Positions 1-45,184 of a DNA stretch of 64,000 nt are shown piece by piece (the first letter of the stretch is position 1; each line of letters begins with the position of its first letter). Both the position numbers and the translations under genes were made by a program. Source of the DNA: Phlegmacium glaucopus (Eukaryota; Basidiomycota; Agaricomycetes; Agaricales; Cortinariaceae); NCBI GenBank assembly GCA_015039465.1, contig MU130031.1:74243-138242 (forward strand), in the 5' to 3' direction. The notes beneath the pieces are model-generated. The model was not told where the DNA came from. It was given only the letters and a program-made list of their open reading frames with translations, and did no database searches.

Positions 1-1230
1 GTGTATGAGTCTACTCAAGAACATCGAACAGATCTGAGTTTTTGGAGTATCTACTAGGGTAGTCCCAAGTAGACTCAAACCCTATGGAGGTCCGTTCGAC
101 GATCACGAGTAGACTCCGACTATCTTTAAAAACCTTCCCGTCCTTCGGTGTTCTATCGTAACAAACAAAACGAAAGGTTTTTACCGTTATACGATTGCCG
201 AACTCGACGAGAGTTCGGTAGTGTTTGCCGGGGCCGAGTGCTCGGTCTCGGCTTCAATGCCGAGTCCTGGGACTCGACTCGGCACCCACTCGGTTCGACT
301 CGGCAATATTTAGCAACAACAACAACATATATTTGAGGTTGGTCTCTCGTTACCTGATCAGAAATTCAGTTTTCGGAGGAACAACAAGCAAATCCCTTCC
401 ATATTGGAATCTGAACATAGTGTGTCTCCATCCCCCACTCTTATCTCTACTCTTCCTACTCCTACTTACTCCTTCTCAGAAGTCATTCTGATATCGTCAA
501 CTGTCATCCAACTGTCATTCCCTGACCTTTTTCGCTTGAATCTCCCTAATTCCTTCTCCTACTCCTTCTTATTCTCCTTCAGAAGTCGTTCTGATATCGT
601 TAACTGTCACCCCTATCTAACTGTCAATTTCCGTCTTTTTCGCTTGAACTCCTTCCTTAAGTGACCTTAAGTTGACTCTACTACTAACAACCCCCCATTC
701 TTACTTAACTTGACTTGATGGATAGGACCATGTTTTCTCGTCATAAATATGGGATTCCTACTCCGATACATTTTGTTATTTTTCTTTCTTCATGCATATG
801 GATTCCGTACTCCGATACATTTTGTTATTTTTCCTTGTTTCATGCACGACAGTTTCCTTCTTTCTATTTTTCTCCTGTCGACGCTCTTCTTTTCTTGTTA
901 CCTTTTCTTCTTCCTTGTTATTTTTTTAGACGTTTCACAGTTTCACGCTCTCTTTTCTTCTCTTCCGTCACATGTATCAGGTTATCGTTTTTATATAGCT
1001 AAGGTATCCGCACACCAGTACAGTTTTTACACTTTCCAGGACTCAGTTGTGAACTTTCCGCGTCGGAACAAGGGCTCTTTTGTGATGAACGGGTACTAGG
1101 GTACAGCACGTCGGAACTATTGTGAACTGTGTGACGCTCTTATTAGGAGACGACGACTAAGTAGACGTTAAGGACGAATCTTCATGTCTCTGCTGTTTGT
1201 TTTTGAAGAATGAGGTATTGGCTTATTCCT
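1..1230. other. Mirror-polarity segment A (complement-only homology)
   Basis: Read normally this T-rich stretch has no recognisable gene. Its plain complement, not its reverse complement, matches 27656-28486 from about 304 to 1180. Positions 691-787, complemented base by base, equal 28042-28138 at all 97 positions. The complement of about 5-40 also resembles a degenerate unit of the 1285-2555 satellite. The block is therefore written 3'->5' relative to its relatives. The right limit lies between about 1181 and 1280; the left limit is outside the window. ORFs at 148-1099 are artefacts of wrong polarity. Likely an assembly error. Confidence 0.88.
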
Positions 1231-1284
1231 TCAGTATTATTTCTGATTTTATTGACACCAAAATAGCTCCTTCACATTAAATGA

Positions 1285-2555
1285 GCCCGGACAAGCTACA
1301 AGAGCTCGTCTGGGCCCCTCTTCAACCTCTCTTCCATCCACCACATTCAAACTAGCCCAGACGAGCTACAAGCGCTCGTCTGGGCCCTCTTTGACCTCTC
1401 TTCTATCCACAATGTTCAAAGGTGCCCAGACGAGCTACAAGAGCTTGTCTGGGCCCCTCCTTGACCTCTCTTCCATCCACCACGTTTAAACGAGCCCAGA
1501 CAAGCTACAAGCGCTTGTCTGGGCCCCTCTTTGACCTTTCTTCTATCCACCACCTTCAAATGAGCCCAGACAAGCTACAAGAGCTCATCTGGGCCCTCTT
1601 CCACCTCTCTTCCATTGACAACATTCAAACGTGCCCAGACGAGCTACAAGTGCTCGTCTGGGCCCCTCTTCAACCTCTCTTCTATCCACCATGTTCAAAC
1701 TAGCCCAGACAAGCTACAAGAGCTTGTCTGGGCCCTCTTCCACCTCTCTACCATCTGCAACGTTCCAATGTGCCCAGACGAGCTACAAGTGCTCGTCTGG
1801 GCCCCTCTTTGACCTCTCTTCCATCCGCCATGTTCAAACGTGCCCAGACGAGCTACAAGCGCTCGTCTGGGCCCCTTCTTGACCTCTTTTCCATCCACCA
1901 CATTCAAACAAGCCCAGACAAGCTACAAGCACTCATCTGGGCCCCTCCTTGACCTCTCTTCCATCCACCACATTCAAATGAGCCCAGACGAGCTACAAGA
2001 GCTTGTCTGGGCCCCTCCTTGACCTCTCTTCCATCCACCACATTCAAACGGGCCCAGACAAGCTACAAGCACTTGTCTGGGCCCCTCTTTGACCTCTCTT
2101 CCATCCACCACCTTCAAACGTGCCCAGACAATTGTCTGGGCCCCTCTTTGACCTCTCTTCCATCCACCACCTTCAAATGTGCCCAGATGAGCTACAAAAG
2201 CTCGTCTGAGCCCCTCTTTGACCTCTCTTCCATCCACCACATTCAAAGGGGCCCAGACGAGCTACAAGCGCTCGTCTGTGCCCTCTTTGACCTCTCTTTT
2301 ATCCACGACATTCAAACAAGCCCAGCTGAGCTACAAGTGCTCGTCTGGGCCCTCTTCAACCTCTCTTTTATTCACCATGTTCATACAACCCCAGACAAGT
2401 TTCAAGTGCTCATCTGGGCTCCTCCTCAACCTCTCTTTCACCCACCATGTTTAAACAGGACCAGACAACCTCCAACTACTCCTCTGGCCCCCTTCTCAAC
2501 TTCTCCTTCACCCACCACATTCAAACAAGCTCATATGAGCTGCAACTTGTGTTTA
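1285..2555. repeat. Hairpin satellite, ~70-bp unit, ~18 copies
   Basis: Units begin at 1285, 1355, 1424, 1494, 1564, 1633, 1703, 1772, 1842, 1912, 1982, 2052, 2122, 2181, 2251, 2320, 2389 and about 2459, so the period is 69-70 bp, with one short unit. Each unit opens with an inverted repeat of about 12 bp: CCCAGACGAGCT, a 5-nt loop (ACAAG), then AGCTCGTCTGGG. A pyrimidine-rich linker (cctctcttccatccaccac) follows. Substitutions inside the arms are often matched on the other arm (cgag/ctcg against caag/cttg), although mixed units also occur. The unit at 2122 has lost most of its loop. Copies decay towards 2555. Confidence 0.93.
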
Positions 2556-2625
2556 CATCCTAGAGACATACTTAATATTGCCATATCTTACTATTGTCCT
2601 ATTGTACATTGTTATTACATATTCA

Positions 2626-3496
2626 TCAGATATATATATCTTCATCTTCTTCCACATTTTCACTGTTTTCCTCCAACTCAGTAACAAGCTGCTCTTCCAG
2701 TGCCCCCATGCTAGTCTTCAAGTCATCCAATGCATCTATCAAATCATCTGAGTCATACTCAGGTTCCTCTAGGCTACGCCCATAAGCCTCTGGATCACCT
2801 AGAGGGGCTGTCCTTGCCACCAACTCAAATTCCTTCAGTTCTTCACTCCAAGACATGCCTTCTGTGAATTTCAACAGTCTACCTTTTCGAATGGAAAACT
2901 TCAAGATCTGCAATGCTTCCATCAGTTGACCTGAAATACAACTTCTTCGAGGTGCCATAGTCTGCTTTCCAGATGAGAAGACCCGTTCACAGGGGACACT
3001 TGAGGCTTGAATGGGTATGATATCTACTGCAAGATTGAAAATGCGAGGATATTGATGTTGATGTTCCTACAATACATATTAGCAAAAAATCAAGCACAAG
3101 TCATGAAACTCAGAACAACCTGCCAAAAATCCAGAATACCTGTTCCTTCATTTGGATTACTGAGATATTGATCCACCTCCATTTCCAGAGACATAGTCTG
3201 CTTTCCTGAGGTTCATTGTCGTTTTAACCTTAGAATGCCTGCTGCTGTTGGCTGAGATGGGTTTGATGGTGCAGGTCAATTCTGGACAGTGGATGATTTA
3301 TCTTCAGAACAAGAATCACAAATCTTGTTATAATAAATATTAGAATCATATAATCTACAAATAAAATAGACATACTGCTTTCAAAAATATTCTTTTTGAT
3401 GTTTCAAATTTTCTATCATCAAATTCATCATCACGGTAAAACCTGAGCTTGTTTCCTGGATCAATTGCTATATTTATGCTAATTCAATAATAATTC

Positions 3497-3530
<34 letters not shown>

Positions 3531-3704
3531 TAAATCTCACCCATAGCTAGAATATGTGCATCATTAAGTCTATCCACATAGTCCTCCAGCTTGAATAGAC
3601 CTGGTTGAATAATATTCTCCCATTCTGGCTTATCTTCTACAAGTTGAGTCCAAAGATTGATGAATGATTGAAATGCTGGAATGGAGTAACATAGGGTAGG
3701 TGTG

Positions 3705-3708
<4 letters not shown>
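2626..3708 (-). pseudogene. hAT transposase, C-terminal part
   Basis: The last exon (3066 down to 2626) begins EHQHQYPRIFNLAVDIIPIQ and continues ASSVPCERVFSSGKQTMAPRR, the hAT C-terminal dimerisation region, followed by an acidic tail. It is spliced through a 53-nt intron (3067-3119) to an exon ending YLSNPNEGTGILDFWQ. Further upstream, separate exons read AIDPGNKLRFYRDDEFDD (about 3397-3475) and TPTLCYSIPAFQSFINLW with LEDYVDRLNDAHILAM (about 3540-3708). The order fits the hAT family. The reading frame runs into a poly(A) tract at 3709, and roughly 50 residues normally between the catalytic core and TPTLCYSIPAF are missing. The N-terminal half lies in the mirror-polarity block to the right. 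Confidence 0.85.

Positions 3709-3742
<34 letters not shown>
3709..3742. repeat. 34-nt poly(A) run at the mirror-block junction
   Basis: An uninterrupted A run from 3709 to 3742 separates normally oriented hAT coding sequence on its left from mirror-polarity sequence on its right. It interrupts the hAT reading frame where an exon is expected. It may be a real homopolymer that broke the assembly, or filler at a contig join. Confidence 0.7.
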
Positions 3743-3745
<3 letters not shown>

Positions 3746-4359
3746 ACAATGTGTGAATAGGTTCCTGTGGAGTCCTGTTGGATCCTGTCGTATCTATTTC
3801 AAAACTCACAGTGGGTAAAAGAGTCCTGTGGAAATCACATAGGACCACGTAACTGGTAGACCTAATTTAGTGTAGTCCTCCGGGACCCTCAGGGAATCTT
3901 AAATACTTAAAACGATCTTTTAGAAATTGGTGGCGCAGGTCCTTTCATAAAACGTCAAAAGAGTTATTCCTCTCGACGATAATTATATTAAATTTGTATA
4001 AGTCCCAGGATTTTGTTAAGAGATGGTAGAAATTTTTTAAAGGAAAAAACCTTAAATACATTAGATGGGACTGGGTCGTGGTATACGAACTTTAGTACGA
4101 ATAGACACTAGTACACTGGTTACCAGACACGCGGTAGGTTTTCTATATATTTGTTGGGTGTTAAAACAAAAGAATAAAGGATGAAGGGGGTCATAATATG
4201 ATCATATAAATACATAGTGATAAAATGAAGTAATATAATAATGATCATATATACTACAAATCTTATTAACTTATATTAAAATAATAATAATAATAATAAG
4301 ACAACACACTCTGGTGAGTTTATAGACCAAATATATACAAAAGATCGTAGTCTAGGTTT

Positions 4360-4600
4360 CCCTGATTCCGACGGAGTCCTACGAGAGTCCAACGGAGTCC
4401 TACGAGAGTCCAACGGAGTCCAACGGAGTCCTGCGAGAGTCCAACGGAGTCCTGCGAGAGTCCAACGGAGTCCAACGGGGTCCTGTCGGATTCTGAAAAG
4501 TATGTATCCATTGAACGTGGGGTCCCGCTGGAGAACTGGACTCACGGGACTCGACGGACCCCGTGGGGTCCTGTAAAGTCCTGTCGGATCCCGTCTTCAG
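4360..4600. repeat. Short tandem motif inside mirror block B
   Basis: As printed, AGTCCAACGGAGTCCTACG-type units of about 20-25 bp repeat some six to eight times and then become irregular near 4560-4600. In the corrected polarity the motif is caggatgctctcaggttgcc-like. It probably belongs to the subterminal repeat region of the hAT element. No gene is visible between 3743 and 4360 in either polarity; that part is AT-rich. Confidence 0.6.
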
Positions 4601-4639
4601 TAAAAAGGACTACAACTGGAGAGAGAGTAGGTGACTCAA

Positions 4640-5640
4640 TTTTACTCGGGTCTGTTCGAAGTTCACGAGCAGACCCGAGGAGAAACTGGAGAGAAAGTGA
4701 TTTTTGTAACGTACCCCGGGTCTGTTCGATGTTGACGAGTAGACCCGGGGAGGAACTGGAGAGAAGGTGGTTGATGTAAGTTTGTTCCGGGTCTGCTCGA
4801 CGTTCGCGAGCAGACCCGGGGAGGTGGAGAGAAAGTGGGTGGTGTAAGTTTGCTCGGGTCTGTTCGAAGTTCGCGAGCAGACCCGGGGAGAAGTTGGAGA
4901 GAAAATGGGTGGTGTAACGTGTCCCGGGTCTGTTCGATGTTGACGAGCAGACCCGGGGAGGAGTTGGAGAGAAAATGGGTGGTGTAACGTGTCCCGGGTC
5001 TGCTCGATGTTGACGAGCAGACCCGGGGAGGAGTTGGAGAGAAGGTGGTTGATGTAAGTTTGTTCGGGTCTGCTCGACGTTCGCGAGCAGACCCGGAAAA
5101 AAACTGGAGAGAAAGTGGGTGGTGTAAGTTTACTCGGGTCTACTCGAAGTTCACGAGCAGACCCGGGGAGAAACTGGAGAGAAAGTGGGTGGTGCAAGTT
5201 TGTTCGGGTCTGCTCTAAGTTCACGAGCAGACCCGGGGAGAAACTGGAGAGAAAGTGGGTGGTGCAAGTTTGCTCGGGTCTGCTCGAAGTTCGCGAGCAG
5301 ACCCGGGGAGGAGCTAGAGAGAAGTGGTTGATGTGAATTTGTGCGGGTCTGCTCGAAGTTCGCAAGCAGACCCGGGGAGAAGTTGGAGGGAAAGTGGATG
5401 GTGCAAATTTGCCCGGGTCTACTCGAAGTTCGCGAGCAGATCCGGGGAGGAGGTGGAGATAAGTGGGTGGTACAAGTATACTCGGGTCTGTTCGAAATTC
5501 ACGAGCAGACCCGGAGAGGAGGTGGAGATAAAGTGGGTGACGTAGAGCAGACCCGGGGAGGTGGAAAGGAAGTGGTGGTGTAAGTTCACTCGGGTCTGCT
5601 CGATGTTCGCGAGCAGACCCGGGAAGGAGTTGGAGAGAGA
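4640..5640. repeat. Second hairpin satellite array, mirror polarity, ~15 copies
   Basis: As printed, each unit of about 70 bp has CGGGTCTGCTCG, a 5-nt loop (AAGTT or ATGTT) and CGAGCAGACCCG, followed by a ggagaaactggagagaaag linker. Complemented without reversal this becomes gcccagacgagc, loop ttcaa, gctcgtctgggc and cctctctttcacccacc, which is the satellite of 1285-2555. The two arrays look like unrelated families only because one is written 3'->5'. Hairpins are centred near 4660, 4732, 4800 and so on to about 5600. Confidence 0.9.
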
Positions 5641-6119
5641 GTGGGGGGGGAAAGTATACATGAAACACAAAAGAAATAGGGTCTCGCGAACAACGAAGAA
5701 AGGTACCAAGAGTCCGTCATAAAAATATAAATATATCTACATAAATATGAAAACATAGTAATCATCACAATATTTAGTAAAATATAAATCAGGACCCAAG
5801 AGCCTCGACAAGTGTACAGTATGGCCGAGGAAAAGACAGTGAATTCCCTACTATAGACACCGTAGCAGAAAGGAAGGGAGGGGAGTAGTAAGTAAGAAAA
5901 GATAGAGTAACTTGTGAAAAGAGGTTACGGGGGTTTCTTTTTATGTGTTTTCTCTTTCCTTTGACAACAACTCGACGGAGTACCACGGGAAGTCTGTTGG
6001 AAACGAGAACTATCATTCATAGTAGACAAGTTAAATTAAAAAATAGACAGATTAAACGATATCTAGGTGGACCATATATCAAAATTTAACAGTTAAGTAC
6101 ATATAAATCTTAAAGGGAG

Positions 6120-8390
6120 AGTCTAGGACGAGGATGAGCAGTTGATTAAGGAGTTTTCCGACGTGGACGTGACCTCTAATCATACAATTGGAATTTAAAT
6201 GTGTTATTTAAAGTTTAATTAAAGTGATAAATTGATATCTATTTTTGTTGGGAGGATTATGGTAACGGTGACCCGAATTAGGGAGTCCGGTTCCATATAG
6301 TAATATTTAAACAGGAATTATTAATTTTAAATAAATTTGTTAAAATAGAAATCGATGTGAGTTAGGAGTTGTAGTTAGGAGACCATATATGGTTAGTTAT
6401 ATATATACATAAAGGAAGAATTTTAAAGAGATCGAGAACTTTCGGCATAAGCGTTTGGGAGTTTCGCTGTTGTTCCTTATCTAGGAGAAGAAGGATATTG
6501 TGGACGGTCTGGGTTCCGAAGATGATCCTGTTAGGGTCAAGGACAAGGGGGTTGTAGAAAACGAAGGGCAGTCTAAGTTCAAAGAGTCTTGGTTCATCGT
6601 CGATGACAAAACAAATGTGGAGTACGATCCGTTGTAGTAGTATGTCCAGGTCAAGGTCGGATAGTAGGTGGTTGTTGAGGGTGAGGTGATCCCCGAGGAT
6701 TTGGACAATGTAGGAATAGTAGTTTGTCGTCAGGTAGTCTAAGTCTTCAACTTCTACTTCACTCTTAACCTAACCTCTCCGACCTGAATTTTAGGGTTAG
6801 TCCAAGGGTTAGTCCAAGGGTTAGTGGGGCACGTCCCGGAGTATCGTTCGTCGCATTCCAATGTAGTTCTGGATCTCCACCCCGGTTCCTACAGACCTAG
6901 AAAAAACTCTTTAGAAGACTAGCGGTGTGGACAAACAATACGTTCATACAGTTTATAGAAAGAGTATCGATACATATATAAACTAAACCAAACATCTGTT
7001 CGAGTACGATGGCTAGGGTCGGTAGTACAAAGTCTGAAATCACAGTGGTGATCATACAGTCCAAATACCTTCGTGGAGAAATGTCTAGTATAACGTCTTA
7101 CCTAGTGAAGTACACTACTAGAGTTATAAGGGTAGTGACGACGACGACGTCGTCTTCGATAGGCGTTCAAGACCTTTCTTGGTCTTTGATGTGGAGACCT
7201 CAGACTTGTGGGAGTTATAAGTTTTCTCCGAAAATAACTACGCTATCAACTGAAACACCAACCCCTACTGGACCACACAACATTTAAAATAAGGTACTAA
7301 TTCTATATTATTAGTCCTATGTCAGTGAATTATATTAACTTAGGGGTGTCAACTTCTTCTAGAAAAACGAGGAGGTAGTTCTCGAATTCCTCAGACTGTA
7401 AGGTCCGGCGTGTTGTTATACGTTTTTTTAACTCTTCCGTATGGTCCTAATAAATTTCGTCGAACTCCTTCTTTACCGTCAGACATTTAAATAAATAAAA
7501 TTACCATTTTTATGACTGATCCAACATCTTTAGTCACCCCTTTTATAGAAAGTGGTGACTACGTACCAGACTAGGTTTAGTTTGAAGGAAATACCGACAC
7601 TGTCGAGTAACCTAGGTCCGGTAATTACTTTTCTGTAGATGTCCTAACTTCTTCTTCGAAGCAGAATCCCGTCTAGACTAACCTAAAGTGTTCAATGGTC
7701 CTGCTGTATGACCACTTGTGGAACGAGTAACAAAAAACAAGTAGTGTCTAGCGTAATTTCAGTGTAGTTTTCATTCACTCGAACAAAAATAAGTGTAGAT
7801 TATATAGATGTAATTGATTATCTAACCTACCTAATGTACGTTGTTACGGAGGTTATTGGTCTGTTACTACCTCAGAAACGTTATAGAAGAGACTTTCGCG
7901 TTTTAGTTTAAATCAACAGAACTCGTTTCTTATGTCAATCTTTTAACCTAAACAAATGTTATAAATAAAAATTAAATAGACAAATCCACGAAAGGAGTGT
8001 ATCAGTTAGAACGAACGTTTCGACAGTATTAACGGTAGTGAAGGGAGTTTATGTAACTACTATGACACCTTCCGATACTTCTAATACTCGGACCACACAT
8101 AAGGTCTCTGACATAACGATAACAAGCCAGTGACCAATTAAGTCGAGAAAAAAACTATAACAAACCAGTGACCAATTAAGTCATTCACGGTAAATACTAA
8201 TTTAAATTAATTATAATTTTTTTTATATCTAAACATTGTCGTTAGAGTTTTTTGTTGCTAAGAGTCTTATACAAGTTCTTATAAACCCCGTCCTAATAGT
8301 TGATGAAGCACTACATGGGTGGTCCACCAGGAGTTGGGATAACTACTAATCGTCTCGAGAGTTCAACTTTCTCCATTTAAGGTGTGTATG
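6120..8390. pseudogene. hAT transposase, N-terminal and central part (in mirror polarity)
   Basis: Read the plain complement left to right. Exon pieces give DPAPTRQLIPQKAAPALEI (near 6125) and a Pro/Ser-rich leader (6440-6790). A BED zinc finger follows: AKDVWIFFEKSS with CLLC, an intron, then SMSGLWKHLFTDH (6850-7100). Next come KESDIPGRTTICKKIEKAY (near 7400), the first catalytic block KISFTTDAWSDPNQTSFMAV (7540-7600), LRADLIGFHKLPGRHTGEHL (near 7690), NNASNN (near 7840), RCFPHIVNLACKAV (near 8000) and DVPTRWSSTLLMISRALKL (8310-8380), ending at a GTAAAT donor. Introns of about 55-80 nt have GT-AG ends in this polarity only. At least one in-frame stop (near 7890) suggests decay. It should join the 2626-3708 tail. 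Confidence 0.87.
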
Positions 8391-8415
8391 GAATATATAA
8401 GAATGAATTTTTACC

Positions 8416-12517: not shown

Positions 12518-15206
12518 ATGGCATCCCATATGCCACTCCAACAAGCCATTCCAACAACCCGCAAGCGGCAAGTCGACAACAACAACAACAACCTCCCCAC
12601 AACTCTGACTAAGTCACGCAGGGAGGTCCACAACAACAGCAGCTGCGATACCACTGCCTCCAGCAATGAAGACAGCAGTGACAACAACCACAGCAACATT
12701 GCCTCCACCCATGAGCCATCCGCTGAGCCTGTCAGTGACGAGGACACCAGTAGGCATAGCAACAACGCCACCACCCTTCAGCCTTCCCCTGAGCTCATCA
12801 ACAACGCCACCACCCTTCACCCTTCCCCTGAGCTTGTCAACAACACCACCACCCTTCAGCCATCCCATGAGCATGTCAGCAGCAATGACTACAGCTGCAA
12901 CACCAATGCCAGCAACCCCGCTCTTGAGCCACCCCCTCAGCATGTCAGTAGCAACAACTATGGCTGCAACGTCAATGCCAGCAACCCTGCTCTTGAGCCA
13001 CCCCCTCAGCACGTCAGCAGCAACGACTATGACTGCAACATCAGCACCAGCAATGTCAATGCCAGCAACCCTGCCCTTGAGCCATCCCCTGTGCATGTTG
13101 GTGGTAACGACTATGATTGCGATGACGACAACAACCACAACAACCGCAACAACAACTGCAATGATGACCACAACAATGACATCAGCAACCACGGAAGTGA
13201 TGCTGCCCCCAGGCCATCCTCTGACCAGCCTGAATTTACCCTTACCCCCAAGGACAACAGTGAAGCATTATCTTTGTTTTTATTTAATTTTATTGACTTG
13301 CTTGCTATAGACATCAATATGGAAATTGATTCAAGTCCACCAGCCCTTGGGGCTTCATGTACTATTGGTGGTGCTTTGTGTGGAAATGCATATGGAAATG
13401 TTTCTAACCATGCTGACTACCCTAGAGTTCACCCTGGTAGTGTTCTCTTTGCAGACAAAGCCCAGGTGGACTACAAAGTCTTTGCTTATCTGGTTTATGA
13501 TGATCCAGTTAAGCTTGATGTGACTGTTGATCCTTTGCTTTGTCCCAAGACTATGTTCTGTGTCTCTACTATCCCCCCTCTTGAGTCTGTGACTGTCTTG
13601 AAGAAGGTTGTGGATTGTCTTGAGGGTGCCATAAGTAAGGAAAATTATTTATTATTATTATTATTATTGCTGATTATATTTAAGCTGCTCATGTTTTTGT
13701 ACTGTCAAATATGTCTGGTCCTTGGCAGTGGAACTTGCTGGGTCACTATGAACATGTCTTAAAAGACAATGAAGATCTTGATTACAATGAAAATAATGAA
13801 TGCCATGTTTTATTTGTAAGTCTTATTGATATTATTGATATTATTAATTTCATAATTTCATATTTTATTTGAAGTGTCTTCCACAAACTCCTTTCTTTTC
13901 TACAGGTTCTTCATATCCTCCTGGATCCTCATATCCCTCCTCAATTCACTTATCTGAATCTCATTCCCATCCTGACACTCCTACCCTATTATCTGGTCCT
14001 AAACAGACTCAGGTAGATGAAGAATTGCTCCATAAACTTAAAACAGCTGGGTTGATGATTGATAATTCTCTCTGCTATGATACAAACCCTACCCTCCAGG
14101 TTATGTATTGGCACTACATTCACATACATGAGATCCATGCCAAGATCTCTGATATGGTTAGTGAAAGATTATGGCCAAGAGAGCTTGGAAAGTCCCCAAA
14201 TCAAACAGATATCATTGGGCTTTTTGTAGCCAAGACTACATGGCATAATTTGTATGCAAAATTGTTTCCAATTGCAGAAGGATGTGAGGATATGAGAGCT
14301 TGGTTGGAGGGTGATATTGTCAAGTCAGATCTTGAGGTTTGGGGGGTTGTCAAATCAAAATACACTCTTGGGGACTTGTCAGAATGGATAAAGGAGCAGA
14401 AAAGCAAGAAGAAGCCTGCTGTGAAAAAAAGTATGAAGGAGAAGGAGAAGGAGAAGGAGAAGGAGAAGGAGAAGGAGAAGGAGAAGGAGAAGGAGAAGGA
14501 GAAGGAGAAGGAGAAGGAGACAGTTCTAAAGGAGGAAAAGAAGAGTCACAAGAAGAAGCCTGTTGCTGGTACTAGTGGGTAGGTAGATTATAACTTCTTT
14601 TTGCTTGGTATTTTACATGTGTTTATGGATTTACTTCTATTTTCAGAGGCTTCTTGCTGCTTCTGGAGGACTTTACACTCCCCCACATTGTCCGGCTGGA
14701 ATTCCGCCGGACTCCAGAAAAGTCCGGTCAGAGTCCGGTCAGAGTCCGGTGGAAGTCCGGTGGAAGTACAAAACATGCCTGTATCCCCTCCTAACCTAAG
14801 AACGTGCTACCGCACAGACAGAAAATATCCCCATCCCTAAATATTAATCCTAAGCCCTAAATCTAAATATAACCCTAAGCCTAACCTCTAAATCTAAATA
14901 TAACCCTAAATTCTATCAAAAGTCTGGCGGACTGTGACCAGACATACAGTCCAGGCATTTTTCTACTTTCACCAGACTCTGACCGGACTCTGACCAGACT
15001 TTTACCGGAATTTTAGTGGAGTCTGCCAGACTTCCACCGGACTCCGGCCAGACAACGTGGGGGACTGTAAAGTACACTGCTTCTGGTACATCATGCAACC
15101 TATACATTTTTGCATCTCTTCACAATTCTGCAAATGCTCAGCCCTCTCATGGTGCTATTGTTTTTGTGTCCTGGTGCAAATGCTGTGAAAAATGAACATG
15201 CATTTC
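12518..15206 (+). CDS. Unknown cargo gene of KDZ copy 1 (Asn/Pro-rich N-terminus, KE-repeat C-terminus)
   Basis: The first exon (from MASHMPLQQAIPTTRKRQVD at 12518) has imperfect tandem repeats of about 25-30 residues such as NASNPALEPPPQHVSSNDYD. A 51-nt intron at 13260-13310 (donor GTGAAG, acceptor TATAG) joins it to NINMEIDSSPPALGASCTIG. Later exons read WNLLGHYEHVLKDNEDLDY (13730-13820) and, from about 13906, a conserved-looking block with MVSERLWPRELGKSPNQTDI and MRAWLEGDIVKSDLEVWGVV. A GAGAAG microsatellite (14430-14520) encodes a KE run. After an intron ending at 14645 the last exon, RLLAAS, is split by the 412-bp element and resumes GTSCNLYIFASLHNSAN to a stop at about 15206. One exon junction near 13635 does not hold phase, so it may be decayed. 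I do not recognise the family. Confidence 0.55.
14666..15077. mobile_element. 412-bp non-autonomous KDZ-type element
   Basis: The left end is GAGGACTTTACACTCCCCCA and the right end reverse-complements to GTGTACTTTACAGTCCCCCA. TGCTTCTG flanks it exactly on both sides (14658-14665 and 15078-15085). Subterminal motifs are AGTCCGGT/GTCCGGTGGA on the left and ACCGGACT/CCAGACT on the right. The core (14830-14915) is rich in degenerate CCCTAA and CTAAATATAACCC units. There is no coding capacity. It interrupts the last exon of the cargo gene. Confidence 0.9.
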
Positions 15207-17317
15207 CAGATATCACATTTAAAGTGTTTAACAAGTTTGTTGAACAAAATTTCAGCTCAAAAATAACACTGTCAACTGATTTAATGCTGTTGTTTACCAT
15301 AACAGAGAATGTAGATCTGTTAAATTTGCATTGATGGCAACAAAATCTCCAACTTGCAGATGAAAAATGGGTGGATTTAAGCTCATGGATCAAGTCTCTT
15401 GCTCATGAAGTCCAAAAGCAGACCACAGAACCTAAATTGAAGACTTTGTTCAAAAACTCAGATAATCACAGGTTACTTCCTAATAATCAAGTTATAACCA
15501 AACTTGGAACCAAGCTAAATGGCCTTGCTGATATATTGGGTCTAAATTCCTTTGGGAGTGATGGAAAGCTGGTTCAGAAACTCCTGCCAATTTCAAAAAA
15601 AAATATTCAGCCAATTTTGATGATCTGCCCAGTATCAAATGTTTGTTCTGATATAAACTGTCGAGAACATGCAATTTTGCAACAATCAGATCCCAATCAA
15701 CTCACCCACACAAGTCTTATTAAAGGTTCTGAAATTGTCACAAATGTGACTGTCTTGAGTAGAATGTGTTCTCATTGAAAAACTCATTATTTTTCTGATC
15801 ATGAGAACTATCCACAAGTTGAAGGTCCTCAGAAAAGGGTATACCTTAACAATGCAAAATATTTGAAGGTAGGACAAAACCTACATGTTGATTGGATCTT
15901 TTCAAATGCTGTTATGAATGGAGTCTACAGTTTTCATGCCTCAACTGCTGCATATGCTGAGTTCTGGACTAATAGCTATGGACAACAACACTTGTTTAAA
16001 ATAAAAAGACACCAAGTGTGGCACACATTTGTCCAAGAATCAGTTTGTACCATTGCTCAAGCCTCTAATACTCTTTTTGAAACAATTGACAATGTATCAA
16101 TTGGAGATCTCACTTATGATGCATTTGCTATTCTAGGTGAGGAAGGAGGAATGAGACTGTCTGATAAGCATGCCTGCTCTGAGTGCACACATGAACATAA
16201 GGTAGTTGCAGATTTCTTACCTGTTGCCAATGATCCTGCAGCAGTTCTTGATGTTGATGAAAATCGGGATGTGCCTCAGTTGGTTGCTGATGCAGAAATG
16301 GCAAACTTTGCAGATGCAGATGATCATATGAATGTTGATGTTGAAGACAAAAAGGCAATAGTGAAGATGATCATAATGGATGGGATTGTTATGGGACCAA
16401 CACACTGTGCATTTGATAATTGCTCAAGAGCCCTCTTAAATGCTTGTGGACAGGGAGATTCATTTTGTCCTGTCCATGCAACTGAATTTCAGAATCGCTG
16501 CCATGTGCGTGATTGTGAGAATAACAGAGTTGATGGAACTCAAGCTTGTCAAGATCACCACAATGACTGGTATCAATATAAGCAGTCCCAAACAAAATCA
16601 AACTTGGCTGGAGTACGTCGAATGCTAAACCAACCAAATGAACATGTTGATTGGGATGAGCAGGGTTCAGGAACTGCCCAACCTCATGATGAGGAAGCCC
16701 CTGAGATAGAAAGCAGAAACTATTTCAGTCCTGGTCGCTTTTATTGTGTTGAAACAATCTGTGCACCTTGTGGTGTTGTGATTGCATGGACCAAGTTTGC
16801 CAAATCTGAGTCACCAACAAAGATTTTGAAGTTTTTGGCAGATACATATCCAAATGAAGCCACAAGACCAGATTATATATGCATTGACAAGGCATGTCTG
16901 GTTCTCAGAACAAGCATTCAAAATGGAAGCTGGGATATGTGGAACAGGACTAGTCACATCATTGTTGATGCCTATCATTATATCAATCATTGCACTACAG
17001 ATTGGATATGCTGAAAATATTGCAATCCTGCTCCTCTTGATGGATCAGCACCTAACTTAGTCATTGAAGCAGAGACAAAGGATGGTGAAAAATATTTAAA
17101 ATGAGCATTTAATACTCAAGCATGTGAACAGTTAAATGGGTGGATTGGAGGATTTGATTCAATTTTGAAAAGGATGACCATTGACAACTTCAATTGGTTT
17201 TTGCATGTGATGTTATTTTATCATACACAAAATGTTCTTCATAAGATAAAAGAAAGGGAGGAAAAAGAGATGAGAGGTGTAGATAACAATGATAGTGATA
17301 GTGAGGATGATGATTGA
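15110..17317 (+). pseudogene. KDZ transposase with CxC5/CxC6 cysteine clusters (copy 1)
   Basis: The frame runs from FPDITFKVFNKFVEQNF through LSSWIKSLAHEVQ. The CxC5-like region is ICPVSNVCSDINCREHA to MCSH. The CxC6-like cluster is FCPVHATEFQNRCHVRDCEN with GTQACQDHHNDW. The catalytic region follows: ETICAPCGVVIAWTKF, RPDYICIDKACLVLRTSIQN, IIVDAYHYINHCTTDWIC, NPAPLDGSAPNLV and NTQACEQLNGWIGGFDSILK, with an acidic end near 17317. At least four in-frame TGA codons (15332, about 15776, about 17012 and about 17101) break it. Three replace the Arg expected from family context, consistent with CGA to TGA decay. The N-terminal start is uncertain and overlaps the cargo exon. As printed it is inactive. 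Confidence 0.85.
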
Positions 17318-27038: not shown

Positions 27039-27655
27039 TTGTCCATTTATCAAATTCCCTGAACTTTACACTCCCCCACGTCTTCCTCCAGGAATCCACG
27101 CGGACTGCCCGGAATCCTGGAGGAATCCTCCAGGAATCCAGGAATTCCTGATAAATGAGAATATTCCTCACGGATTCCGGGTGGATTCCTGGGATTCCTA
27201 TCTAATTCCTGCCGGATTCCTAGTTAATTCCTGCCGGATTCCTGGTGGATTCCTGGTATTCCTGGTATTCCTAGTATTCCTGGTATTCCTAGTATTCCTG
27301 GTGGATTCCTGGTATTCCTGGTGGATTCCTGGTGGATTCCTGGCAAGTTCCTGGTGGAATTCTGGTGAAATCAGCTAAGTCATTGACTTGTTTTATTTAA
27401 TTTAATTTTTCCTTGATTTTTTTTATTGCAAGATATATATTGAAAATTATATACAAGTACATTAATCACTTATTAATAATGTATTAAATAAACTAAAATG
27501 TACCCCCATGAGGGGGTTATGATTGTAGTATATTAAAATTAAAATGAACCCCGGCAAGGGGGTTGTCGTCGTCGTCGTGTGAGGGCTGTGATAGTATATT
27601 AAATAAATAAACCCCCCCGTGAGAGGGGGGGTCGTACGCGTTGTCGTTCGTACGC

Positions 27656-28486
27656 GTTATAAATCGTTGTTAGTGTTGCTATATAACACCAACCAGAGAG
27701 CAATGGACTAGTCTTTAAGTCAAAAGCCTCCCTGTTGTTTGTTTAGGGAAGGTATAACCTTAGACTTGTATCACACAGAGGTAGGGGGTGAGAATAGAGA
27801 TGAGAAGGATGAGGATGAATGAGGAAGAGTCTTCAGTAAGACTATAGCAGTTGACAGAAGGTTGACAGTAAGGGACTGGAAAAAGCGAACTTGGAGGGAT
27901 TAAGGAAGAGGATGAAGAGGAATAAGAGGAAGTCTTCAGCAAGACTATAGCAATTGGTAGTGGGGATAGATTGACAGTTGAGGACTGAAAAAGCGAACTT
28001 GAGGAAGGAATTCACTGGAATTCCACTGAGATGATGAAAGTGGGGGGTAAGAATGAATTGAACTGAACTACCTATCCTGGTACAAAAGAGCAGTATTTAT
28101 ACCCTAAGGATGAGGCTATGTAAAACAATAAAAAGAAACAAAGTACGCGCTGTCAAAGGAAGAAAGATAAAGAGAGGACAGCTGCGAGAAGAAAAGAACA
28201 ATGGAAAAGAAAAAGGAACAATAAAAAAATCTGTAAAGTGTCAAAGTGCGAGAGAAAAGAAAAGAAGGCAGTGTACATAGTCCAATAGCAAAAATATATC
28301 ATAGACTCCATAGGCGTGTGGTCATGTCAAAAATGTGAAAGGTCCTGAGTCAACACTTGAAAGGCGCAGCCTTGTTCCCGAGAAAACACTACTTGCCCAT
28401 GGTCCCATGTCGCGCAGCCTTGATAACACTTGACACACTGCGAGAATAATCCTCTGCTGCTGATTCATCTGCAATTCCTGATTAGT
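27656..28486. repeat. ~830-bp repeat, partner of mirror segment A
   Basis: Starts near gttataaatcgttgtt and ends near ctgcaattcctgattag. Its plain complement corresponds to 304-1180. It contains an internal duplication: agtcttcagtaagactatag near 27829 recurs near 27930, and gactggaaaaagcgaactt recurs at 27877 and 27983. No coding potential was recognised. It sits inside the 3.3-kb element. Confidence 0.85.
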
Positions 28487-29079: not shown

Positions 29080-29228
29080 GTTGTTCGTACGTGTCGTCGT
29101 GCGCGTGTGTTGTCGTTTGTACGCGTCGTCGTTTGTACATGTCGTCACTTGCGTGTGTCGTCATTTACGTGTGTCATCTTTGTACGTGTCGTCCGTACGT
29201 GTTGTTGTTTGGGTGTCGTCGTGGTGAT
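29080..29228. repeat. GTCGTC...GTACGTG tandem array
   Basis: About seven loose copies of an 18-20 bp unit, TCGTCGTTTGTACGCG-like, occur. Related single units are at 27630-27655 (gtcgttcgtacgcg). A similar GTCGTC/GTCATCCGTCC array occurs at 29700-29850. Confidence 0.75.
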
Positions 29229-30403
29229 TAAAATAAAGGATAAAAAATAAAATAACCCCCCCAGTGAGGGGGGGGTGGTCGTCGTCGTGCGTGGTGGTCG
29301 TCGTTGTGGTAGCTGGTAGTGTACTAAAATAAATTAAAATAAAATAACCCCCCCCCTGTACAGGGGGGGGGTAGCTGTCGTCATCCGTTGTTTGTTCGAC
29401 GTCGTTGTCGTTGTCCGTTGAAATACAATGAACCCCCCCATACAGGAGGGTAATCATTGTTGTCGTTGTCTGTTGAAATAGAATAAAAACCCCCCCCCCG
29501 GGGCAGGGGGGGGGGGTAGCTGTCGTCGTTCGAAGAATAAGAATTGAAGGGGGGGGTGAAAAGGTGGTGGTTTGTCGAGGTGGAGGATGGTGGTGGATGG
29601 GAGGGAGGTCGTCGTCGTCGTCGTACGCTGCAGGAATTCGTTAATGAAGAAATTAAAATAAAAGAATTTTTAAAAAAAAACCGAAAACCCCCCTGGGTAG
29701 GGGGGTAGCCGTCGTCATTGTCGTTGTCGGTTGTGATTGTCGTCCTCGGTCGTCCTCATCCTCATCGTCATCCGTCCTTGTCGTCATCCGTCCCCATTGT
29801 CATCCATCCTCGTCGTTGTGTCTTTGTTGTCGTTGTCGTAGTTCTGGGGTGGTGACGATTGTGATGGTGGTAGTTGTGAGGTGACAAAGTGTTACTAACG
29901 TTTGTTGATTTGGGAAATATTGTCACGTGTGAGGTCACATGACCACACCTCGCGGCCTGAACAAAATTCAAAATTTAAATGGCGGCAAGGCATTGCCACC
30001 TTTAATATATGAATTACAATTAACTCATATATAGTATGAATTACTGATGTTTTAGTATTTTACTTTTAAATATTAATAATACATAATATATAATGGTAGT
30101 ACCAGGAATTCCCAGGATTCCGGGTGGATTCCGGGTGGATTCTGTGTTGGGGATTCCTAAGGAATTCCGGGAATCCTGGTATCAATTTCATTGTGTACCA
30201 GGAATCCACCCGGAATCCTCCTGGACTGGGAAGAGCCAGGAATGTCAATTTCAGGGGAAATTGACTGGTGGGAAATTCCTCCTGGAATCCTGGTATTCCT
30301 ACCAGGAATGGTAGGATTCCTCCAGGATTCCAGGAGGAATAGGTAGGAATCCACCAGGATTCCTCCAGGAAGACGTGGGGGAGTGTAAAGACCTCCAAAT
30401 TCC

Positions 30404-33655: not shown

Positions 33656-34978
33656 TGATAGGACTGAAAATTGAATACCTATGGATTATTCATTTTTCAT
33701 AATATTATTCTTCAATTGAATCAAAAAGATCAATAAACCAACCATGAATTAATCTACAAATTGGTAGTGTAAGGGTCAAAAGTGTTGACTACACTTGTTG
33801 ATTAAACTGGAAATTGCAAAGTTTTGAATGTTAACTCAGCAGATAACTATGATCTGAATTGATCTATTTATCATACTGTAAAATAACACTACAAAAAGTT
33901 CAGACTATAACCATACAAAAATCCATAATGGTCTAAATGAACAACTTGCAATCTAAAGTAACTATCAAGTCTACAACTGTGAAGAAATTTGTCATACAAG
34001 TCCTAGGACGATATCAGTAAACATCAATAAAGTTCCTGAAACAGTGAAACACTTTGTGACATTTTGTCACATCATGTAACATTTTTGTGACATTTGTGAC
34101 ATTATGACGTCATGAGACATATGATATCATAAAACAAGGCATGATATCATAAAACAAGGCATGATATCATAACAACCAAGGCATGACATCAAAAACAAGG
34201 CATGATATCATAACATAGACATGACATCACAGACTCTTACCTAATTTTGTTTCTCATTTATGTATATAAGTAACTAGAAAGCACCAGTAAAATTAGTGAA
34301 TTTGCACTCTTCCTTTCTTTCCCAAGTTTCAGCGCTCTGAATTGGCACAAGTTAGAATTGGAATTACAAGTGGACTTGCTTTGCTTCACTCAGTTCAAAG
34401 GGTATTAAATCCTAAAGGGGCTTACCTTTGTTCTGTGTAAACCAAGAATATTAAATCCTTTAGGGACTTGTCTTGGAAGCAAGGATATTAAATCCTTTGT
34501 CAGAGTCTGAGGAGAAATCCTTGTACTATAAAGCTGTCTCACAGTCTGCCTCAGGGACTTTAAATCATTTGTTGTGGATAGTCAAAGAATATTAAACCCT
34601 AAAGGGGCTTGTCTTTGTACTACCAAAATTGGTTATCATATAGACAAAGGATATTAAATTCTATAGGGACTTGCCTTTGTTCTATCAAAAAGCACTATAT
34701 AATAGTCTAAGAAATTGGACTATAAACTTGTTATCAGAATCATAGTCTAGAGAAATTTGGACTTTAAACTTGAATCATAGTCTAGAAAATTTGGACTTAA
34801 AAAGTGTATTGCTGCTTTATTCAAGAGTATACTGGTTATACTTTCAAGGAAACCCCAACTTGCACAAAAACAGAGTTTGTTGGTCATTAAAAGTTATTGG
34901 TTTCTGGATTTGTTGTAGACAAATTCCTAAAAACAGTAATCCTTTGATTACCTTGCAAAAACAAACTCAATCACATCA
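33656..34978 (-). repeat. Solo LTR (~1.32 kb) with 4-bp target duplication
   Basis: Ends are TGATAGGACTG and CACATCA as printed (TGATGTG...CTATCA on the minus strand). CCGG lies at 33652-33655 and 34979-34982. Removing the insert and one CCGG restores the KDZ frame as DPKNPPRAKNSNFCPACPQP. The interior contains repeated ATATTAAATCCTTTAGGGAC-like units (34395-34680), tandem CATGATATCATAA units (34115-34210) and TTTTGTGACATT repeats (34050-34110). It is related to the Gypsy LTR at 21707-23011. Confidence 0.88.
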
Positions 34979-36939
34979 CCGGGCCAAAAACTCTAACTTT
35001 TGCCCTGCGTGCCCTCAACCAGGTGTCAATTTAGCAGAGAACTGGAAGGATGATGTTAACCGGCAAGTATTCATTTTGTTTGATCGTTGAGGAATTAACA
35101 AGTAAGCAACACAGGTTTGTTTACAAACGGACCTTCGTGGCCGATGGGAATTTCAAAGCCAATCATATTTGCCAAAAGAGTCCTGAGGGTGATGTATGGC
35201 TTTGCGATGGTTCAGGGATGATGCCTAACCGTCAGGAATATTTCGACTTTCTGAAACAGGCCCAGGAAAAATCAACAGTAAGCATGAGAGTATGCAATGC
35301 CGATGCCGATGCTGGACTCACTTTCCATCGTAGAAAGCTCCCTGTGAAAGTACATTCAGAGCGATAACCAATGCCTTGCGGGGATCAAAGGCATGTGACA
35401 TTACAGGCATCATCGGCATTGCATGCGCACGGCATGGCTGCTATGCGCCGAATGCCTTGGTGGACTTGTTCAAAGGAGAACAACAAAATAACGTGGACTT
35501 TGCCTTTTTACAGGTGCTAAAAACAACTTCTGTATCCCCAGAACAAGGTGTCATGCTCATTTATGACATTGCGTGTCAATATTCTGTGCATCTACACAAG
35601 CGAATTGGCCACAAACTGCCATTCAGCCTCAGTGTGGATCATGTGATTGGCCTGTTCCATGTTCATTGTCATAAAGATGAATGTTTCCTCAGATTCGCAC
35701 CTTCATTCATACCAGGCCTAGGCATAGTTATAGGTGAAATCCTGGAGTCACTCTGGTCAAATCTTAATTCTATTTCCCCCACAGTCCAAACCGCGACCTT
35801 GCCACATCAAGCCAAGATGCTAGATGACCATGCCAGTGACTCTAATCACAAGAAAGCACTTGGAATAACCAACTCGTTAGTGGCCAGGTACTGGCAGGCA
35901 TCGGCAATGGCCGACGAGACCCAGACCTATTATCTCAAGATGACATCCATAGTGGAGGCTGAGAGAGTGAACACCTGGGAGGATGAAATATTGAAGGCCA
36001 AGTTAATGAGGGAGGCCGATCTGACGGTGATGGATATCTATCGTGCCCGAGTGCCCGATCAATTGTTGGATGATACCTCATCAGGATTGGGATTGGGATC
36101 GGCTATGCCGATATCTCCCGTTCATCAGTGGATTCAGTTTGCCTTGATGGTGGAAGAGAAACAGTGAGTGCTTGGCATTATATTGGCTCACACTGCTTAC
36201 CAAGATACAAAATTGATGTCCAGGACCGTGTTTGGCGACTCACCCGTTAGCCAACCGATGCTGATGGTCAATCTATTGAACAGGAATGGGAAAAGTTAGT
36301 CCAGCTTTTAGTTAAGTTGAAGGAACTACAAGAGGCTGCTGGAATTTCAGAATGCTTTCCTTGCATCGCAATGCAACAAGAGAGTGAGGTAGAGTTCAAT
36401 ATTGACATGGAGGCTGATATTGACAGGGAGGCCGACATTGATCCCTCAGCGTCAGCATCAGCATCAGCAGCGCCGGTGATTTTGGATCCATCGGAGGATG
36501 TACCAATCCCAATTGAACAAAAGATAATTTCCCTCCCATCGAATGGAAATGTAGAGGGTATTTTCAAGGCCATTGAACTCCCTTTCAGGATTAACCAAGC
36601 AAAGACATATCTCAATCAGCTCTGGGACCTAATCTCTGAGAAATTGTTTCAATATTCACATGTCGTGTGGGCAGCTCCGAGGAAGTCAGTCAGGACACAG
36701 GCCTGAAAGACAATCTATTCATTGAACTGTAAAATTGCCCTGCATTCCCAGATCTACTCCAGATGCTGAGCCCGGCTGGTTACACTCGGATGTGATGAGG
36801 AGACATTGAACATATTTTGTGCGTTGACAAAGGAGGATGTAGAAGGAAGTACAGTGATATTGAACCCCAATCTGCCTGGTTCAACCAAACTGCAGCTGTC
36901 ATGGCTCTGGGGAACTGGTGGTCTTGCCAGCACCTTCGG

Positions 36940-37251
36940 CAGTACTTTACCCACACATTCTGAGCAAGTCCGAGCAGGTCCGAGCAATCCGAGCAAATTC
37001 CGACCAAATTCCGAGCAATCCGACCAAATTCTGACCAACTTCTGACCTCATTTAGGGTTAGGTTAAGGTTTGGTTAGAGTCTATTTAGGGTTAGGATTAA
37101 GGTTTATTTAAGAGGTTAGGGCAGTATATTGATGCTAGGTGGTTATAATGAATTTGATGTAAAATTGGTTGGATTCTGCTTGGATTCTGCTCGGAGTTTG
37201 CTCAGACCCGCTCGGACCCGCTCGGAATGTGTGGGGGAGAGTAAAGACCTC
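36940..37251. mobile_element. 312-bp non-autonomous KDZ-type element
   Basis: The left end CAGTACTTTACCCACACATT has lost a few C/T bases. The right end reverse-complements to GAGGTCTTTACTCTCCCCCA. Flanks are ACCTTCGG (36932-36939) and ACCTTTGG (37252-37259), 7 of 8 identical. Subterminal motifs are GTCCGAGCAGGTCCGAGC on the left and GACCCGCTCGGACCCGCTCG on the right. The core (37045-37125) repeats TTTAGGGTTAGG. It interrupts the C-terminal part of KDZ copy 3. Confidence 0.88.
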
Positions 37252-37621
37252 ACCTTTGGAGCTGAGGTCCACCCCAATGCCGATCATGCGACTGTTCTGG
37301 AATGTATGTTTTCTGCCACTTGTAATGTTGCTCACTTATAGTGAATTAGTCAGGTGAGTTCACTGGCTGTGTGCTCATGCACAGAAACACAGATGGCAAG
37401 AAGAACTCATTTTGGTTACATATGAAATGCAGTGGACAGTTTGTTACTTTGTCCAAGCTCGTGAGTGGACCTTGGGCCTGCCGAATGTTGATGTTAGCGC
37501 CGGTGCCAAGGCATATGCCACTCGGCAGGAGACAATATGGCGACGATTAGCATCAGCTGCTGATCGGGCCTTTCAGCAGGTTAATAGCCAATATGTCTCA
37601 CCACTGATTGGAATTATGTAA

Positions 37622-38165
37622 TGTGAACAGGATCAAAACTCAGCTACACTCATCTCTACCAAAACACTTGTACTCTAGTAGCACTGTCCACATGTCTCAT
37701 ATTCTTAATGCTTTTCACCCTTTTTCATTGCAATCGGGATCTCCACACAGGAATTATGTCAGATCGCAAGAAGTTATACACTACGGAGAGTCCAGATTCC
37801 ATCATGCATTACTGATCATCAGCAAAGCAGATGCTGATATGCAACGATGGATGCAAATGTATCTTCAGTCTGAGTTGGCATGTCTTGGGTTGCATATACT
37901 AGCATGATTACTGATGTTGCAACAGATGTTTGTCCTCTCCTATGTTGGTGCTGCCTCCACCGTTGGGCAGGTCATCAATGTTCCCATCATCATCCGATCT
38001 TTGGCCGCTACTATGGCACATGTTGCCGAGGAACACTTGCCTATGGCCTTTCATCCTAATCTCCTCGCAGTATTGGACGTTGGCACAGATAACGACAAAC
38101 CAACCTGCTTAGTTGACTCCTACGCTTTGGCATGGTGAAATTCCAATAAGCAGCCTGCCCCTGAC
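37622..38165. other. Spacer between KDZ copy 3 and the repeat protein
   Basis: Short plus-strand ORFs (37608-37907, 37914-38138) read through in several frames, for example LSYVGAASTVGQVINVPIII. They may be remnants or upstream exons of the 38166 gene. No confident gene is visible. Confidence 0.35.
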
Positions 38166-40541: not shown

Positions 40542-41344
40542 TGTCTCATCATTGTATGATATTTTGGGTCCTGAAATTTAATCCCTGATTGCCATTTATA
40601 CCTACAATGCCGATCTTTGGCTGAGGCCGAGGGCCCAATTCTGGCCGCCTGGAACCTGATAATATTTGTGAAAATTTTATTGAATTCATCCACCCTTTTA
40701 ATGTTAGGCTATGATGTCATATAGAGCTGGGCTGATTTACTTACATGCCAATGTCAGGCAACTGGCAAATTCCTGAGATGACCCATCTGATACAGGGAAC
40801 TCCTTGGCTTCAGACCCACATCTGTGCTGCTACCCCCTACTATCCTGATACACCCTCAATACAAGGCCAATGCCGAGCAGTGGCCAATGCCTATGTCCTC
40901 GTGGTGTCATATGGTGCCGGGGCCGAGGGGCTATTCTGGGTACATGGTCTTTGCGGGGGGGCAACACCCACACATACTGACAACTGCGGCCTGTCGTGGC
41001 CGACGGTTCTGTGTAACACTGCCTTGGTACATGTTCCGAGTTGTGGGTGAAGCCGGCTGCAGGCCTGGCCTTGTGCCAATAGAGTGCAGAGGCCTGGGGA
41101 ATTCGGCTTTGTGACCTACTCGATGCCTGATGCCGATGCCTATCTCCCCGAGTTGAGCCCGGTTGCCGAAGTCATCCAGGTATGGGCCCTGGTGAATTTG
41201 CTAGCCCTATACCATACACTACAGTGTAATATTTCCTGTTTGGGTAATATTCGCTAGAGTCCAGGGAAGCCGAATGGTACACTACAATGTATGCCTTCTC
41301 TCCACCGTATGATACATCACAATGTAACTTAACTATGTGCTACA
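40542..41344. other. Intergenic, GC-richer, no gene recognised
   Basis: Short ORFs only. GCCGATGCC/AATGCCGA phrases recur, resembling the codon pattern of the upstream repeat gene, so this may be its decayed extension. Near 41205-41335 three related phrases occur (tacactacagtgtaat, tacactacaatgtatg, tacatcacaatgtaac). Confidence 0.35.
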
Positions 41345-44300: not shown

Positions 44301-45184
44301 ATGTCTACATCACTGCGTTATTGGACAAATGGAATATGTTGCTTTGCAAGCCTGCGTCGACACCTTTCCCTTATAAGATCACTGAAATGCCGCCTACTCC
44401 ACCAAATTCCCTTCCAGAAATTTCTGATGATGAACTCGTACCAAAATACCAACGCCTTGTAGGATGTCTTCTGTATCTTGCCATTTCTACTCGTCCCGAC
44501 CTCTCGTACTATGCAATGTGGCTTGGACAGTTCAACTCTAAACCTACCCATTTTCATTTCCTCGCTGCCAAGCATGTTTTGCAATATTTAGCCGGCACTA
44601 AGGATTTAGCTCTCTTATTGGGCTCACCTTCATCATCAGTTCCGTCAACTCTCTGCGCTTACATGCAAAATGTGGGTTGTTCTGATGCCGACTGGGCATC
44701 AGATGCTGTTGATCGCAAAAGTATATCAGGATATTCATTTTATTTTGAAGGTTCTCTCGTTTCCTGGTCTGCAGTGAAGCAGAAGTCCATTGCACTATCT
44801 TTGACAGAGGCTGAATACTACGCAATGACACACGCTTTCAAGGAGGCACTCTGGCTCAAAGTTTTTCTTGGTTTCCTCAAATTCCCCATTCCTCGTCCAT
44901 TTCCTATCTTGTCCGACAATCAAGCTGCTTGCTCTCTTTCAAACACACCTGCAATTTCAGCGCGCTCAAAACATATCAATATTTGACATCATTTTATTTG
45001 TTCTCATGTTTCCGATGGCTCTTTTTCTACCACTTGGATTCCTACAAGTGACATGCCTGCCGACATTTTCACTAAACCACTTCCTTTTGCTTTGTATAAA
45101 CAACATCGAGATGTTCTTGGACTTTCTGTTCCTCCCAAATTGTGATATTTTTCTATATTCTTGTTCTATCCGACCTGATGGGGG
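41345..45184 (+). pseudogene. Copia-type retrotransposon polyprotein
   Basis: It starts inside gag at the zinc knuckle CGNCGKTGHTVPTC (near 41355). Next are the protease (SCLDSGCTDYIIRDHTLF, near 41760), the pre-integrase HRRFGYLGMEATKDTL with CTACIIGKS, integrase (LHMDLCGPYPTQTPDGKLYF, ALHAHSQNGKIERY) and the downstream VWGCQCFIV region. RT follows (VGLKWVYDQKMDTNGSLIQG, FDCKTAFLHAKL, VPIHVDDGLAITN) and RNase H (GCSDADWASDAVDRKSISGY, LSDNQAACSLSNTPA, SKHINI). The end reads PADIFTKPLPFALYKQHRDV. A frameshift at 42358 and stops near 42807, 43167 and 43310 inactivate it. The 5' LTR and most of gag are absent, so it is 5'-truncated. Confidence 0.9.

Follow-up and report, generated by a model that had tools for sequence, protein, structure and literature searches.

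Wrong-polarity blocks in a Phlegmacium glaucopus contig, one of them within a hAT transposon, probably stem from gap filling

We analysed a 64,000-nucleotide stretch of Phlegmacium glaucopus contig MU130031.1 (positions 74,243 to 138,242; 'the window', in whose coordinates positions are given unless the contig, C26, is named) that carries a hAT transposon with part of its sequence in a wrong polarity. Positions 3743-8415 of the window are a string that has been reversed in place and not complemented. This block is not a biological feature, nor is it a new kind of rearrangement; with a probability of roughly 0.93 we take it to be an assembly artefact, in which a gap-filling step wrote some of its fills in the wrong polarity, and by our reading the block is a fully closed assembly gap. 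An initial annotation of this DNA had held an assembly or data-handling fault to be the likeliest cause, which our results support and narrow to the gap-filling step. It had also described a single 4.7-kb block; the block is real, but several further wrong-polarity segments exist.

Four versions of the window were translated in every frame to look for the three hAT peptides quoted in that annotation. The plain complement contains all three, with starts at 7541, 7664 and 8311, and the printed, reverse-complement and plain-reverse versions contain none. Reversing the block in place and translating the minus strand, as had been proposed, brings the transposase exons (6120-8390, readable in the plain complement only) directly upstream of an open reading frame (ORF) in the tail of the element, 2629-3066, which lies outside the block on the minus strand in normal polarity. 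This tail ORF, the C-terminal hAT dimerisation exon of the same gene (also C26:77141-77308), matches PF05699 with 41.6 bits (cut-off 21.4; E 1.1e-10).

The rest of the genome holds copies with which the block can be compared. After reversal in place, 3746-7544 aligns to a normal-polarity hAT copy on contig C130 with 94.7% identity over 3,805 columns, and the unreversed tail, 2001-3708, aligns to the same copy with 97.0% identity over 1,720 columns; the two alignments share a strand and succeed one another in order. In total, the hAT stretch was found in the printed polarity at two loci (C26 and C35) and in normal polarity at two others (C130 and C60, the latter consisting of three pieces counted as one). 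The peptides, the order of the exons, the protein homology described below and the collinear C130 match thus bear out the claim that a hAT transposase, which continues into 2626-3708, can be read from the plain complement. The C130 alignment after reversal, together with the peptides and a mirrored dinucleotide bias, likewise confirms that the block was reversed without being complemented.

A protein of 521 amino acids, joined by hand from the exons of the block in its plain complement, had 34 protein matches at E<=0.001 among 7,992 candidates scored. The top match belongs to Pleurotus pulmonarius (E 7e-107, 41% identity over 88%), and Mycena, Armillaria and Candolleomyces contribute others. 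Several matched proteins are annotated as hAT or contain PF05699, and homologues of the joined protein also carry PF27041/PF27039. Neither the five block exons tested nor the joined protein matched any Pfam hAT or BED profile at E<=1. The expected match to hAT profiles was therefore obtained for the tail exon but not for the block itself, and the hAT homology of the block is based on the DNA alignment and the protein search. This hAT copy has probably decayed, since an in-frame stop terminates one of the exons along its predicted splice path.

The left border of the block lies directly after a run of 34 A (3709-3742, plus strand), and the right border falls somewhere in 8405-8415, a nearly mirror-symmetric sequence that leaves an uncertainty of about 10 bases. 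Composition alone places the borders roughly, at 3805/8378 in one run and at 3723/8411 with a hidden Markov model (HMM) of polarity. In the C130 copy, about 195 bp of other sequence stand in place of the 34 A, whose presence here may reflect a deletion or a faulty fill. The block also contains a minisatellite of about 70 bp per unit (4616-5645), which is the mirror image of a normal-polarity array at 1273-2545 (plus strand).

The composition of the block is mirrored as well. Outside it (a set that still includes window 1-1272) CpG is depleted relative to GpC and CA/TG are above AC/GT, with rho values of 0.56/0.94 for CG/GC and 1.24/0.90 for CA/AC. Inside 3743-8415 these relations are swapped (0.97/0.32 and 0.80/1.18), and reversing the block brings back the bias of the outside type (0.32/0.97 and 1.18/0.80). 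We further computed a polarity score, the log-likelihood of the reversed over the forward string under a strand-symmetric order-5 Markov model trained, with held-out folds, on the normal-polarity sequence of C26. In a stricter run, C26 homologues of wrong-polarity segments known from mirror hits were excluded from training, as were the C130 copy and the normal minisatellite. In that run the block scored +108.8, whereas 1,350 sliding normal windows of the same length had a mean of -124 and a maximum of -20.9; the part of the block without the minisatellite, 5660-8415, scored +88.1 against a maximum of +0.4 in 1,427 normal windows. With the looser training the block scored +285, a value inflated because the C130 copy and the normal minisatellite were in the training set. 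Among 500-bp tiles, 15 of 18 within the five wrong-polarity segments of C26 (see below) scored positive in the stricter run compared with 20 of 306 normal ones, and 18/18 compared with 24/306 in the looser run. The conclusion is the same with either training set.

Short microsatellites can be mirror-symmetric, and small polarity calls are noise, as the 20 positive normal tiles illustrate; chance mirror symmetry of low-complexity DNA might thus be invoked for the block. A 3.8-kb alignment at 94.7% identity and a homologous protein of 521 amino acids refute this explanation, the probability of which is practically nil. Short calls of the polarity HMM elsewhere in the window (29123-29371, 41193-41697, 56679-56887 and 63236-63405) have no supporting mirror hit and were rejected as noise; 41193-41697, in addition, overlaps an open plus-strand ORF. 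The same HMM also flagged short pieces outside the window.

The whole of C26 (195,469 bases, 28,257 of them N) was covered by tiles and the window. Its N runs lie at C26:1-14160, 36750-38871, 62698-74242 and 179272-179701, the third ending one base before the window starts. Besides the block (C26:77985-82657), four segments of the contig are in the wrong polarity: C26:14161-15385, called from composition and contact with N; C26:61520-62697, from composition and mirror homology; the start of the window (1-1272, that is C26:74243 to about 75514, with its inner border at about 1180-1272), which extends the right edge of an N run; and C26:176410-179271, from mirror homology and the HMM. The two longest HMM calls, C26:6869-15385 and 61520-75422, were trimmed to their non-N ends, since both run through N. 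Together the five segments make up 11,221 of the 167,212 non-N bases of C26, or 6.7%, when the third is counted as far as 75525. All but the block adjoin an N run, and a closed gap would be expected to lack such contact. Composition discriminates poorly at lengths near 1.2 kb, where 1,501 normal windows reach +29.8. C26:14161-15385 (+32.2) and C26:61520-62697 (+38.0) exceed this maximum, while C26:74243-75525 at the window start scores +19.6, below it, so that the latter call draws on mirror homology.

Four of the five segments are backed by mirror homology within C26. Alignment of the window to its own string read in reverse identified 303-1180 as the plain complement of 27655-28485 (plus strand; 90.7% over 882 columns), and wrong-polarity C26:177292-178144 has a normal-polarity counterpart at 34104-34942 (plus strand; 94% over 857 columns). 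When C26 was compared with itself, 67 of 69 distinct mirror hits paired a wrong-polarity with a normal stretch and none paired two wrong ones. Ordinary self-hits (n=268), in contrast, joined normal to normal (250) or wrong to wrong (18), and never one to the other; many of these hits join one minisatellite unit to another and cannot count as independent, and the mirror hits were already known when the segment borders were set. The two mirror hits that do not fit the named segments involve a likely sixth wrong-polarity patch of 229 bp, C26:43770-43998. This patch lies close to an A run, the same border feature as at 3709-3742, and homopolymer runs may have caused the original gaps.

Segments running up to N runs point to the gap-filling step, and the joins at such edges show what was written there. 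The sister copy on C35 is in normal polarity up to ...AACTTGAATT (also given as ...TCAACTTGAATT) and then gives way to some 0.54 kb in the wrong polarity, as far as an N run (C35:57812-65500). Taken backwards from the edge of that run, this piece starts CATGTAGGTCTTTG / CATGTAGGTCTTTGAATTC, and the C130 copy continues TTGAATTTATGTAGGTCTTTG / TCAACTTGAATTTATGTAGGTCTTTGAATTC, with a single C/T difference at the join; reversal in place restores continuity to within one or two bases. The extension is therefore the right sequence for the edge of the gap, written back to front in place. The polarity HMM assigns the wrong polarity to both edges of this N run. Similarly, when C26:179271 is read backwards onto 176409, the tandem array resumes (91% mirror hits; the join was judged by eye), and when window 1-1272 is read backwards, a minisatellite-like unit lands, also as judged by eye, next to the array at the right edge of the large N run.

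A real parallel-polarity copy made in the cell has nothing in its favour beyond the printed letters. Such a copy would have to favour N edges and to leave there, in mirror form, the locally correct sequence. To our knowledge, no polymerase or joining reaction makes a copy in parallel polarity, and we consider this explanation extremely improbable, at well below one chance in a hundred.

Wrong polarity recurs on other contigs. Window 1-1272 contains, in mirror form, a dispersed repeat that is present in many copies and measures about 830-880 bp; its normal-polarity copy in the window is the one at 27655-28485. In the printed (wrong) polarity, the repeat at 303-1180 gave 42 matches from the 40 scored of 67 first-look candidates (66 first-look candidates with a shorter query), and in normal polarity 43 matches from the 40 scored of 802; the ratio of wrong to normal copies is only a rough guide because the candidate counts are not confirmed matches. 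The HMM called the repeat mirrored at all seven wrong-polarity loci that were retrieved, on seven contigs (L030-L036), and at none of seven retrieved normal loci (L038-L044), and N lay within 1.5 kb of four of the former and of none of the latter. A dispersed coding repeat at 35376-36167, which we take to be a KDZ-type transposon, was found at 20 normal-polarity loci, one of them in the window itself, and at two mirror-polarity loci (C41 and C247). The polarity of these pieces, their in-place geometry, their contact with N runs and their recurrence on other contigs are direct observations. On two contigs (C129:489843-490850 and C132:261625-262612), copies of the dispersed repeat stand beside short inverted pieces of themselves, which are perhaps fold-back fills or real inverted duplications.

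We infer that the N runs represent gaps in the assembly and that the fault arose in a gap filler. The contig would formerly have had a gap inside the hAT transposon and its adjacent minisatellite, for which a later gap-filling step would have recovered the right sequence. Some of the fills, however, would have been given only half of a reverse complement: the antisense sequence would have been either reversed only or complemented only. Gaps that were spanned would then have become closed blocks, such as 3743-8415, and unspanned gaps would have acquired wrong-polarity extensions at one or both edges, as at window 1-~1272 and at C26:61520-62697, 176410-179271 and 14161-15385. A fault that depended on the strand would leave the fills of one strand correct; this would fit the four of the seven N edges of C26 that score as wrong polarity, and is not proved thereby.

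Several observations weigh against this account. C26:14161-15385 is without any mirror hit. The remaining three of the seven N edges score as normal, which a strand-dependent fault predicts, but so would edges that were never filled. C26 starts with 14,160 N, which is odd for a scaffold; this run may represent a gap, the removal of an end contig or a masked stretch, and more generally some of the N runs may not be assembly gaps. Three of the seven wrong-polarity repeat loci have no N within 1.5 kb. The account leaves unexplained the loss of approximately 195 bp at the block's left border. Finally, the lower tile count of the stricter run (three wrong-polarity tiles fewer), with its positive normal tiles, belongs on the same side.

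Some N runs being masks would also suit a fault in file handling after gap filling, whether in post-processing of patches, in scaffold editing or in sequence storage, and any step that pastes fragments could produce mirrored blocks. Nevertheless, the blocks at N edges are locally right once reversed, so the faulty step had the correct gap sequence as separate pieces, and we regard such a later fault as improbable.

The gap-filling reading can, tentatively, be made more specific: the filler may have been PBJelly, perhaps in the hybrid route of the Joint Genome Institute (JGI) with ALLPATHS-LG, with a strand-handling fault in part of the fills. According to its description, PBJelly closes spanned gaps and otherwise extends the flanks and shrinks the gap (PMC3504050), and both patterns are present here. 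A study of a large JGI set of mycorrhizal fungi describes hybrid assemblies made with ALLPATHS-LG and patched with PBJelly (PMC7550596). The protein matches of the joined transposase fit an agaricomycete. A separate homologue search returned mostly unnamed proteins and a single named match, to Amanita, at 39%. Conversely, other gap fillers may behave alike, and no report of a mirror-polarity fill fault, by PBJelly or otherwise, was found among open-licence papers (subscription papers and software issue lists lay outside the search). Passages of a firefly paper make no mention of such a fault either. We consider the attribution to PBJelly possible, although less likely than not.

One further feature of the window is a group of ORFs at 41420-44986, which resemble, we presume, a Copia-type retroelement.

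The five segments of C26 have, as printed, a polarity with no counterpart in the cell, and mirror copies of repeats lie on other contigs. For genes, repeats and reads in mirrored blocks the usual annotation and mapping fail, and the fault could escape attention, since BLAST and gene finders alike leave the plain complement unread. It is conceivable, at odds we would put at about one in three, that a strand-handling fault in a widely used gap-filling route left mirror sequence at many gaps, both here and in further public genomes. If the gap-filling account is true, a composition test of polarity together with mirror self-alignment would find and delimit mirrored fills without reads; should a common gap filler be at fault, other assemblies would be affected too, and screening them would be cheap.

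Once its polarity is restored, the element resembles known agaricomycete hAT transposons (Pleurotus, Mycena, Armillaria and Candolleomyces): the four best matches are 41-45% identical over 70-88%, and the likeness includes the PF05699 exon. The only difference from them is that the polarity fault divides the gene, which has probably decayed. Like an ordinary inversion or an inverted misassembly, the block reads the wrong way round; unlike an inversion, which is a reverse complement, it is a plain reverse. The closest parallel is with the errors of long-read gap closers. The DENTIST benchmark (PMC8848313) gives a lower identity of the inserted sequence for such tools, and the errors of PBJelly, LR_Gapcloser and TGS-GapCloser are, as here, closed or shrunken gaps with faulty sequence. 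The fill here, by contrast, is nearly correct in its letters but mirrored, which the literature consulted does not describe.

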